In this document: one piece after another, positions 3,713 to 48,109 of the stretch
Layout of the letters: each line of letters opens with the position of its first letter
Position numbering within the stretch: the stretch's first letter is position 1
NCBI RefSeq assembly: GCF_030166655.1
Contig: NZ_CP126446.1
Span: 3,224,001-3,288,000, forward strand
DNA: 64,000 bases
Direction: 5' to 3'
Source: Pontibacillus chungwhensis
GTDB lineage: Bacteria > Bacillota > Bacilli > Bacillales > BH030062
Made by a program: the position numbers and the translations under genes
Notes under the pieces: generated by a model
Databases searched by the model: none
The model's input: only the letters and a program-made list of their open reading frames with translations
Told to the model about the DNA's origin: nothing

Positions 3713-3775
3713 AAAGAAAAGAGGGTGCCCATGAGGCTCTCCCGTAGGAGAAGAGCTCATCACAGGCACCCTCTG
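3713..3775 (-). terminator. Strong terminator after menB
   Basis: On the minus strand AGAGGGTGCC pairs with GGCACCCTCT across an inner stem (ATGAG with CTCAT, and CTCC with GGGAG), followed by TTTTCTTT. It should end most transcripts coming from menFDHB before menE. Confidence 0.8.
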
Positions 3776-3788
3776 ATTATCGTTCGAT

Positions 3789-4610
3789 TTATGGGAAACG
3801 CGGGAACTGTTTGAAGTCTGGCTTGCGTTTTTCTTTGAACGCATCGCGACCTTCTTTTGCTTCATCTGTTGTGTAATAAAGAAGCGTTGCGTCGCCACCC
3901 ATTTGTTGAAGACCTGCAAGGCCATCTGTATCAGCATTAAAGGACGCTTTCAAGAAGCGTAGCGCTGTAGGTGATTTCTCAAGCATTTCCTGACACCATT
4001 GTACCGTTTCTTCTTCAAGCTTTTCTAATGGAACAACGGTATTGACCATGCCCATGTCCTCTGCTTCTTTAGCAGAATATTGACGGCACAGGTACCAAAT
4101 TTCACGAGCTTTCTTATGGCCAACCATACGGGCTAATAATCCAGCTCCATAACCTGCGTCGAAGCTGCCGACTTTTGGTCCTGTTTGTCCAAAGATTGCA
4201 TTATCAGCTGCAATTGTAAGGTCACATACAACGTGAAGAACGTGGCCTCCACCAATCGCATAACCTGAAACCATGGCAACAACCGGTTTTGGAATCACAC
4301 GGATTAAACGTTGTAAGTCTAAAACGTTAAGGCGTGGAACTTCATCGTCCCCTACATAGCCTCCATGACCGCGAACTTTTTGGTCTCCACCTGCACAGAA
4401 TGCATCGTCTCCTGCACCTGCAAGAACAATAACACCAATTTTAGAATCATCACGAGCGTAAGAAAACGCATCTAACAATTCTTTAACGGTATGAGGACGG
4501 AAAGCATTACGTACCTCTGGGCGGTTAATCGTAATTTTCGCGATTCCATCATTAGTTTGATAAAGGATGTCATCATAGTGACGTTCATTAATCCATTCTA
4601 CTGCTGACAT
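3789..4610 (-). CDS. menB: 1,4-Dihydroxy-2-naphthoyl-CoA synthase
   Basis: MenB closes the second naphthoquinone ring (Dieckmann-type reaction, crotonase fold). The 273-residue product has FCAGGDQ (71-77), the oxyanion loop GYAIGGGH (about 116-123) and [15 protein letters not shown] (141-155). The QTG at 142-144 is the signature of bicarbonate-dependent (type I) MenB enzymes; that assignment rests on family knowledge. The ATG at 4610 has an ideal AAAGGAGG. An upstream in-frame extension to 4673 would overlap menH and lacks a ribosome site. It lies 31 bp behind menH and is followed by a strong terminator. Confidence 0.96.
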
Positions 4611-25615: not shown

Positions 25616-26392
25616 ATGGTCGAAAATCAAGTAGTATTTATTACAGGAGCCGCACGCGGAATTGGTTATGAAATCGGAGAGACTTTTGCAGAGAATGGTG
25701 CAAAAGTAGTTCTATCCGACGTAAACGATGAAGGCGTTCAAGAAGCTGCTAAAGCTCTTACAGACAAAGGCCTAAACGCTATCGGTGTTAAAGCGGATGT
25801 AACAAGCGAAGAAGAGATCGAAGCTGCAATTGATCAAGCTGTAGAAACATACGGCCGAATTGACGTTTTAATCAATAACGCAGGTCTTCAACACGTATCT
25901 CCAATCGAAGAATTTCCAACAGAGAAATTCCGCCTGATGCAAGATATCATGCTTACAGCACCATTTATCGCAACTAAAAAAGTATTCCCTATCATGAAAG
26001 AACAAGGCTATGGCCGCATTCTAAACATGGCCTCAATCAATGGATTAATTGGTTTCGCCGGGAAAGCTGCATACAACAGCGCGAAGCATGGTGTAATCGG
26101 CTTAACAAAAGTATCAGCACTTGAAGGTGCCGAGCACGGCATCACAGTTAACGCTATTGCACCTGGTTATGTAGACACACCACTTGTAAGAGGTCAAATG
26201 GAAGACCTTGCGAAATCTCGCGGTGTTGAGCTAGAAAAAGTATTAGAAGAAGTGATCTATCCACTTGTACCTCAAAAACGTCTTCTTCAAGTAGAAGAAA
26301 TCGCCGACTACGCTATGTTCTTATCTAGCGAAAAAGCGAAAAGCGTAACAGGACAAGCGATTGTCATCGACGGCGGATATACCGCTCAATAA
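25616..26392 (+). CDS. bdhA: D-3-hydroxybutyrate dehydrogenase (SDR)
   Basis: The 258-residue short-chain dehydrogenase has the cofactor motif TGAARGIG (about 10-17), Asp after the second strand (LSDVND, NAD preference), NNAG, catalytic Ser-Tyr-Lys in NMASINGL and AAYNSAKHG, and NAIAPGYVDTPLVR. The long segment QMEDLAKSRGVELEKVLEEV is the usual lid of 3-hydroxybutyrate dehydrogenases. The ATG at 25616 has GGGGAGG 9 bases upstream. It probably oxidises 3-hydroxybutyrate from storage polymer or medium to acetoacetate, and pairs with the divergent permease. Confidence 0.9.
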   Translation: MVENQVVFITGAARGIGYEIGETFAENGAKVVLSDVNDEGVQEAAKALTDKGLNAIGVKADVTSEEEIEAAIDQAVETYGRIDVLINNAGLQHVSPIEEFPTEKFRLMQDIMLTAPFIATKKVFPIMKEQGYGRILNMASINGLIGFAGKAAYNSAKHGVIGLTKVSALEGAEHGITVNAIAPGYVDTPLVRGQMEDLAKSRGVELEKVLEEVIYPLVPQKRLLQVEEIADYAMFLSSEKAKSVTGQAIVIDGGYTAQ

Positions 26393-26402
26393 TTCAATTT
26401 TT

Positions 26403-26441
26403 CATAAAAAAAGAGGACCCATCTTTGGGTCCTCTTTTTTG
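26403..26441 (+). terminator. bdhA terminator
   Basis: AAAGAGGACCC pairs with GGGTCCTCTTT, followed by TTT. Confidence 0.9.
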
Positions 26442-26512
26442 TGTTGGATTGGGGGCTAGGGGTTGTGAAGATGTAGCAGGGGGTTGAGGGTGAGGCTGAG
26501 GCTAGGGGCCGG

Positions 26513-27215
26513 GCTTGAGCCGTTTTGTCCTGAACTTGAGCCATTCTACTTCTCTTTAAGCCATTCCTTCTCCTCTTAAACCATTCTTTGCTTTCTCGAG
26601 CCGTTATTTTGGCGCCTTGAGCCGTTTTTGAACTATCTCAAGCCGCTTCTCCCCTCACTTGAGCCCCACTCTCCTTACTTGAGCCGCAACCCCGCACTAT
26701 GCCAACAGAGATTCCGCTTGAGCCATCTCGGTCTCATCTTGAGCCACTCTTCCCCTTCTTAAGCCGCTCCTTCTCCTCTTAAGCCACTCTCCTCATTCTC
26801 GAGCCGTTATTTTGGCCTCTTGAGCCGTTTTTGAGCTTTCTCAAGCCACTTCTCCCCTCACTTGAGCCCCACTCTCCTTACTTGAGCCGCAACCCGCACT
26901 ATGCCAACAGAGATTCCGCTTGAGCCATCTCGGTCTCATCTTGAGCCACTCTTCCCCTTCTTAAGCCGCTCCTTCTCCTCTTAAGCCACTCTCCTCATTC
27001 TCGAGCCGTTATTTTGGCCTCTTGAGCCGTTTTTGAGCTTTCTCAAGCCGCTTCTCCCCTCACTTGAGCCTTCATTTCCATACTTGAGCCGCCTTCACCT
27101 CACTCGAGCCGCCTTCGCCTCACTTGAGCCGCCTCACCTCACTCGAGCCGCCCTCGCCTCACTTGAGTCGCCTCACCTCACTTGAGCCGCCTTCACCTCA
27201 CTCGAGCCGTCCTCC
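26513..27215 (+). repeat. Array of about 33 CTYRAGCC boxes, 19-21 bp apart
   Basis: A box CTTGAGCC, CTCGAGCC, CTTAAGCC or CTCAAGCC recurs about every 20 bp, separated by pyrimidine-rich spacers. At a larger scale a unit of about 202 bp is repeated 2.5 times (about 26560-26761, 26762-26963, 26964-27070); each full unit contains one longer spacer with GCACTATGCCAACAGAG. The last part (27079-27215) has simpler 18-20 bp units. The DNA just before it (26446-26512) is purine-rich on the same strand. It lies between the convergent bdhA and pgi, bounded by their terminators. No credible coding frame or RNA family was recognised. Confidence 0.9.
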
Positions 27216-27230
27216 CCACCCTACCCAGAA

Positions 27231-27268
27231 CAACAAAAAAAGCGAGCACCCTCACCAGGTGCTCGCTC
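27231..27268 (-). terminator. pgi terminator
   Basis: AGCGAGCACC pairs with GGTGCTCGCT, followed by seven T on the minus strand. Confidence 0.9.
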
Positions 27269-27274
27269 TAACAC

Positions 27275-28627
27275 TTATTTATTTAAACGTTGTTCAAGTT
27301 CTGCTTTCTGCGCCTCAAAGCCAGGCTTTCCAAGTAAAGCGAACATGTTTTTCTTATAAGCTTCTACTCCAGGTTGATCAAATGGATTCACACCTAGAAG
27401 ATAGCCGCTGATGGCACATGCTTTCTCAAAGAAGTACACCATGTAACCGAATGTGTAAGCATCTAATTTCGGAACGTGGACGATTAGGTTTGGTACCTCA
27501 CCATCTGTATGAGCAAGCATAGTCCCTTCGTATGCTTTCTGGTTTACGAAATCAACCGTTTCTCCTGAAAGATAATTCAGACCATCTAAGTTTTGTTCAT
27601 CTTCCTTAATCGTTACATCGCTCTTAGGTTCTTCAACATGAAGAACCGTTTCGAACAAGTCACGACGTCCATCTTGTATATACTGTCCCATTGAATGAAG
27701 ATCAGTTGAGAAGTTAGCAGAAGAAGGGAAAATTCCTTTTTGGTCTTTGCCTTCACTTTCGCCAAATAACTGTTTCCACCATTCAGCAAAATACTGAAGA
27801 GAAGGTTCGTAATTGACAAGCATTTCAATGGTCTTCCCTTTGCTATATAAGGCATTTCGAACGGCAGCATACTGGTAAGCAGGGTTCTTCTCAAGGTCTT
27901 CTTCGCTTAATTGTTGCTGAGCAAGCTGAGCTCCATCCATCATAGATTGGATATCGATGCCACTTGCCGCAATTGGAAGTAGTCCAACTGCTGTTAGAAC
28001 AGAGAAACGTCCACCCACATCATCAGGGATTACGAAGCTTTCATATCCTTCTTCTGTAGCAAGTGTTTTAAGAGCGCCTTTTTGTTTATCTGTAGTCGCG
28101 TAAATACGTTTACGAGCTTCTTCCTTCCCGTACTTATTCTCTAAGAATTCACGGAAAATGCGGAAGGCAATAGCCGGCTCTGTTGTAGTACCACTTTTAG
28201 AGATGACGTTAATCGAAACATCTTTGTCCTTAATTGCATCAAACAGATCATTCACATATGGTGCACTAATGCTATTACCAACGAAGAATACTTGAGGCGT
28301 ATCACGCTGGTCTTTAGAAAGTTCATTGTAGAACGAGTGGTTTAACATTTCTAATGCCGCGCGAGCGCCAAGATAAGAACCTCCGATTCCTACTACTAAA
28401 AGAACATCAGAGTCTGATTTAATTTTTTCTGCAGCTTTTTGGATACGAGAGAATTCTTCCTGGTCGTACTGTTCAGGAAGGTCTAACCAACCTAAGAAGT
28501 CATTTCCTGCTCCCGTTTTATTGTGTAAAGAATGATGTGCAAGCTTTACAGTTTCTTTTATATTCGTTAATTCGTGTTCACCGAAAAACGGCAACGCTTT
28601 TTCATATTCAAATCGAATGTGAGTCAT
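27275..28627 (-). CDS. pgi: Glucose-6-phosphate isomerase
   Basis: Pgi interconverts glucose-6-phosphate and fructose-6-phosphate. The 450-residue protein has the SIS-domain motifs [29 protein letters not shown] and [14 protein letters not shown], the active-site segment [17 protein letters not shown], and DQPGVEAYK near the C-terminus. The ATG at 28627 has GGAGGG 7 bases upstream; an in-frame TTG at 28642 overlaps that site. Placement between yugN and yugJ matches B. subtilis. A near-consensus cre-like site (28667-28680) is too weak to claim. Confidence 0.97.
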
Positions 28628-48029: not shown

Positions 48030-48087
48030 AACGCGTGTCTGACACGCTTCTTCACTGTAAAATGGTAAAGGGTGTCTGACACGCGTT
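48030..48087. repeat. Inverted repeat with two GTGTCTGACAC boxes
   Basis: AACGCGTGTC (48030-48039) pairs with GACACGCGTT (48078-48087). Each arm also contains the near-palindrome GTGTCTGACAC (48035-48045 and 48072-48082), closely related to the centre of the 27-bp palindrome at 44081-44135. No gene is present. Confidence 0.75.
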
Positions 48088-48109
48088 GGTTCTTTAAAAG
48101 GGAAAAGAA

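Follow-up and report, generated by a model that had tools for sequence, protein, structure and literature searches.

Arrays of a conserved 8 bp box at gene 3′ ends in Pontibacillus belong to the 20–21 nt class of bacterial tandem repeats

The array of CTYRAGCC boxes that lies between a short-chain dehydrogenase gene and pgi in Pontibacillus chungwhensis is a real member of the known class of 20–21 nt repeats, with which it agrees in every feature tested. We tentatively interpret it as a DNA-level platform on which a putative box-binding protein would assemble along one face of the helix. The window referred to below is the whole stretch of DNA that was analysed, 64 000 nucleotides in length.

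Tandem repeats of 20–21 nt with constant length and variable, species-specific sequence have been described in Bacillus and other bacteria (Subirana and Messeguer, 2021; PMC8161180). They occur in many bacteria, are non-coding, have no known function and carry a short constant motif in their units, for example TCGCGG in B. weihaiensis. The same authors note that the length equals two helical turns and suggest nucleoid proteins or small RNAs for the repeats. The class is delimited by at least four repeats, of which at least 60% have the same length (±1). The Pontibacillus arrays share the unit of 20–21 nt, the variable sequence, the dispersed species-specific families and the short constant motif, and differ in the box itself, in the ordering of their units into a module of about 200 bp that includes a single AT-rich unit, in their gene-end position and in the conservation of their loci between species. 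The text of PMC8161180 makes no mention of Pontibacillus, terminators, intergenic position or orientation; the priority of our position and polarity findings over earlier descriptions of the class is not certain.

The features of the locus are as follows (window positions).
25616–26392, + strand: short-chain dehydrogenase (bdhA-like) gene (Pfam adh_short_C2, 4.2e-63)
About 26410–26441, + strand: intrinsic terminator of the short-chain dehydrogenase gene
26446–26512, + strand: G-rich (purine) tract between the terminator and the first box
26512–26521, no strand assigned: first box, GGCTTGAGCC, a CTYRAGCC match on both strands
26514–27208, + strand: 33 CTYRAGCC boxes phased at 20/21 bp
26514–26716, + strand: higher-order unit 1, nine boxes and one degenerate unit
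26595–26615, also 26798–26818 and 27000–27020, + strand: anchor unit, a box followed by GTTATTTT, recurring at ten other unrelated array loci
26686–26716, repeat copy at 26889–26918, + strand: spacer across the degenerate box CACTATGCCAAC, giving the 39 and 38 bp intervals
26717–26918, + strand: higher-order unit 2, 202 bp
26919–27082, + strand: higher-order unit 3, incomplete
27083–27208, + strand: homogeneous tail of 19/20 bp units, with CTTGAGCC and CTCGAGCC mostly in alternation
27232–27268, − strand: intrinsic terminator of pgi
27275–28627, − strand: pgi, phosphoglucose isomerase (Pfam PGI, 9.5e-24), present in all nine family genomes

An earlier reading made from the sequence only had described about 33 boxes, nearly all fitting CTYRAGCC in all four pyrimidine–purine combinations, with a periodicity of 19–21 bp. 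This is in agreement with our count: 30 of the 33 boxes are exact, all four combinations are present, and of the 32 intervals 28 measure 20 or 21 bp and two 19 bp, while the remaining two (39 and 38 bp) each cover one degenerate unit with a box that has decayed to CACTATGCCAAC or similar. The exceptions to the consensus, put at 'at least two', exist and are three in number (TTTAAGCC at 26555, CTTAAACC at 26575 and CTTGAGTC at 27162). The density of boxes goes beyond base composition, with 35 CTYRAGCC matches in the window compared with 6.4 (s.d. 2.7) expected from shuffles and only four of the 35 outside the array region. The proposed 202 bp higher-order unit is recovered by Tandem Repeats Finder (2.8 copies, 92% matches, 26535–27092), and the array does lie between convergent intrinsic terminators. 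A coding role, which had been doubted, is ruled out because the unit lengths mix 20 and 21 bp and because no convincing reading frame runs through the array, the only candidate being a 95-amino-acid TTG frame that overlaps its end. The purine tract had also been suggested to pair with the pyrimidine-rich array; the duplex energy does not stand out from that of the shuffled tract (z = −0.8), which gives no support for specific pairing.

The host genome contains 15 such arrays at about 370, 475, 762, 782, 937, 1129, 1139, 1149, 1285, 1391, 1485, 1559, 3250 (the window array), 3333 and 3963 kb (C1), and zero arrays of the reversed control pattern. Among nine family genomes the box family is found in three, namely the host, Pontibacillus salipaludis CGMCC 1.15353 and the draft genome of P. 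chungwhensis BH030062, and is absent from five Pontibacillus congeners and one sister-genus genome. When the loci are grouped through their flanking orthologous genes, 19 groups are obtained across three Pontibacillus species, 12 of which are common to at least two species and nine to all three; most of the host arrays thus have a counterpart at the same place in the other two species. A plasmid search with the window array as the query gave no match. At one further locus (L183, reverse complement 3752–3816 and 4000–4061) terminator-like hairpins recur between modules, as if the terminator of the upstream gene had been duplicated together with the array.

Over 41 loci, 798 of the 823 single-unit intervals (97%) are 20 or 21 bp, with a mean of 20.46. 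In the set of 1030 boxes from the three species, the CTTGAGCC positions carry 1.4–1.85 bits of information, while most spacer positions carry less than 0.4. Some signal extends beyond the box in the form of R at +8 (0.92), T at +10 (0.75) and the near absence of C at −1, and the 21 bp units are more AT-rich than the 20 bp units (GC content 0.41 versus 0.52). The sequence-only reading had confined changes to a symmetric hexamer. This fails, since C→T at position 7 (157 boxes) is the most frequent variant and position 8 also varies (C→T, 64), next to T→C at position 3 (142) and G→A at position 4 (86). The variation is wider than the symmetric hexamer, which accounts for only part of it and is rejected as a protein site.

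Divergence is about four times slower in the boxes than in the spacers. In close species pairs the box divergence is 4.5%, compared with 17.4% for spacers of the same units (Fisher p = 1.6e-10), and over all species pairs the values are 9.9 and 35.1%; the boxes were located by similarity, which biases their apparent conservation upwards even though up to four mismatches were permitted during gap filling. In the full set the boxes also show an excess of transitions relative to the spacers (77:22 versus 185:233, p = 1.5e-9), but in the close pairs this excess is not significant (14:8 versus 70:63, p = 0.37), which points to a long-term filter or, in part, to saturation of the spacers.

These data bear directly on a serious rival to the platform, a satellite conserved by descent. 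A functionless minisatellite element of about 200 bp would have spread once and then grown and shrunk by unequal exchange where this is harmless, behind gene ends, while exchange between units kept the boxes identical. The varying copy number (33, 11 and 8 boxes at pgi in the three species), the near-identical superunits in tandem, the gene-end position as a tolerant site and the lack of a significant transition excess in close pairs all fit such an element. In orthologous arrays, however, it is the boxes that are slow and not the spacers of the same units, and this speaks against the minisatellite because exchange would homogenise the spacers as well. The register of unit lengths is moreover kept although the spacer sequence is nearly lost. 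We consider an origin by descent without function less likely than the platform.

The arrays are composed of modules of about 9–12 units each, and the spacer of the anchor unit starts with the AT-rich GTTATTTT, often behind the box CTTGAGCT. Around this single AT-rich unit, one order of unit lengths, 21-20-20-20-21-21-21-20, is common to 11 unrelated loci despite the drift of the spacers. The agreement of unit lengths by register is 0.78, compared with 0.51 when the unit order is shuffled (z = 11.7); the anchor unit, which was picked by sequence, is excluded from this test. Apart from the anchor unit the spacer sequence shows only a weak signal by register (z = 2.0), so we restrict the claim to the anchor and the lengths of the units. 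Such a shared order means that the modules descend from a common ancestor, that their geometry is constrained, or both. It could persist by common descent, since indels are rarer than substitutions.

From the conservation of the boxes, the spacing, the unit-length order, the position and the conservation of loci between species, we infer that a putative sequence-specific protein would bind each CTTGAGCC-type box. As 20–21 bp correspond to two helical turns, its protomers would be aligned on one face of the helix and cooperative assembly would be possible, and each module of about 200 bp contains the AT-rich unit GTTATTTT once, always in the same position. Because the arrays lie at the 3′ ends of genes and outside transcription units, the likely role of such an assembly would be in local topology or insulation at these ends, as proposed for Escherichia coli BIMEs. 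The sequence-only reading had left the choice between a protein-binding array, a structured RNA and a satellite. The platform is the reading we favour, because the boxes resist change unlike the spacers of the same units while the phase and module geometry persist; the satellite behaviour is also real, and RNA is disfavoured. Against the platform stand the mean spacing, which is slightly below two turns of relaxed B-DNA, and the related species that live without the CTYRAGCC box, and mere tolerance may be an alternative cause of the placement 3′ of genes. A more specific version, which we regard as doubtful, is that a putative oligomeric protein would read the module, with its fixed 20/21 order around one AT-rich unit, as a whole and would mark or insulate a chosen set of genes at their 3′ ends, the word being replaced rapidly between lineages and the places being kept.

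The Pontibacillus arrays are located 3′ of genes, mostly past terminators, never between divergent genes and usually with the box strand antisense. Six of the 19 groups lie between convergent and 13 between codirectional genes; none is divergent, compared with 23 of 76 background gaps, and in all 19 at least one of the two neighbouring genes ends towards the array. A terminator-like hairpin separates the gene from the array in 28 of 35 cases. Of the codirectional groups, ten have the box on the antisense strand and three on the sense strand (p = 0.09), the ratio being 7:0 in groups shared between species, and each of the three exceptions is present in one species only. With crude gene calls, the TTGAGCC arrays of two other genera have antisense:sense ratios of 7:0 (G374) and 7:4 (G136), and the ratio is 4:3 in a genus with the box CCGAACTC. 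Polarity as a general law is thus rejected; at most, arrays of the TTGAGCC type tend towards it. The genes beside the arrays serve metabolism, transport or regulation and have no functional theme in common; among them are pgi, a glycyl-type class II tRNA synthetase, levansucrase, BCCT and GntP transporters, PelG and a YhcN lipoprotein.

Within the order, 12 of the 399 genomes, belonging to nine genera, contain TTGAGCC at 20–21 bp spacing, and in the other genera the spacers are different (for example TTGAGCCGCTTCTATCGGCAG in G374). In G136 the TTGAGCC boxes alternate between 19 and 21 bp and the modules recur about every 280 bp. The reversed control pattern also matched in several genomes of the order, and it is through these matches that the arrays with the box CCGAACTC were discovered as a family belonging to one genus. 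In two genomes of this genus, which is part of another family of the order, the CCGAACTC arrays are dispersed, have 20/21 bp spacing and reach 41 boxes.

Two Pontibacillus congeners have 20 bp arrays of the unrelated box TGCTCSSAAA, with five loci known that include the downstream side of pgi and the glycyl-type tRNA synthetase. Sister species thus carry another box in their 20 bp arrays, and these coincide in place with the CTYRAGCC arrays once or twice. As the TGCTCSSAAA box was first noticed at pgi, only the tRNA synthetase locus is an independent coincidence.

A replication or recombination signal with strand polarity, Chi-like or segregation-like, that avoids the terminus is improbable. 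With dnaA at base 1 of the host chromosome, the stretch from 1.56 to 3.25 Mb is free of arrays (p = 0.01 for 15 arrays, 0.036 with clusters counted once), a nominally significant gap that is suggestive of terminus avoidance, although the test is post hoc. Gene direction is moreover confounded with replication direction. The candidate Chi word AGCGG is strongly biased towards the strand opposite the boxes (132:7), but it occurs in only about one eighth of the units and follows from the final CC of the box and the spacer composition; as a signal it is rejected.

A structured or sponge RNA, in which the array would be transcribed and its repeats would bind protein or other RNAs, is quite improbable, even though a 52 nt repeat class is reported to be transcribed in B. 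coagulans and small RNAs are discussed there as a role (PMC8161180). The folding energy of 210 nt segments from the 41 loci does not differ consistently from that of shuffles on either strand, the Rfam search gave only matches below the gathering score, and the arrays are mostly beyond terminators. Least probable of all is a Rho-loading region in a C-rich, G-poor box-strand RNA that would end antisense or read-through transcription towards the gene end: pyrimidines are enriched on the box strand, which in most cases is antisense to the gene beside it, but intrinsic terminators are already present on most gene sides and Rho sites require neither a fixed 8 bp box nor a 20–21 nt phase.

The gene-end position of the arrays parallels that of the BIME/REP elements of enterobacteria, which in E. 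coli are binding sites for gyrase and IHF and often lie between convergent genes (PMC2817692, PMC1525189). Like them, the arrays are dispersed, extragenic and often tandem, and are common behind genes, including convergent pairs; in contrast to these palindromes of alternating orientation, they are direct repeats of an asymmetric box. No transposase was found among the array-adjacent genes tested. The likeness is therefore one of place and perhaps of role, and not of membership.

Plasmid centromeres such as parC of pSK41 consist of 20 bp direct repeats, and likewise present tandem sites of about 20 bp in helix phase, suited to a protein superhelix. Here, however, at least 15 chromosomal loci lie beside unrelated housekeeping genes, and none of the 15 adjacent genes at 14 host loci is a partition gene by Pfam. 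CRISPR arrays also alternate a constant word with variable spacers; in our arrays the box has 8 bp and the spacers 12–13 bp, the spacers are duplicated in superunits rather than unique, and the window array matched no CRISPR RNA family.

The clean box, the ordered module, the conserved loci and the sister species with another box lead to concrete testable predictions, namely that a protein binds the box, that the spacing matters and that gene ends are affected. On the practical side, the draft genome of P. chungwhensis has five contig ends inside or beside these arrays. Another repeat in the window is a two-copy 37 bp direct repeat at 48035–48107 (GTGTCTGACACGCTTCGTC...), with 78% matches.
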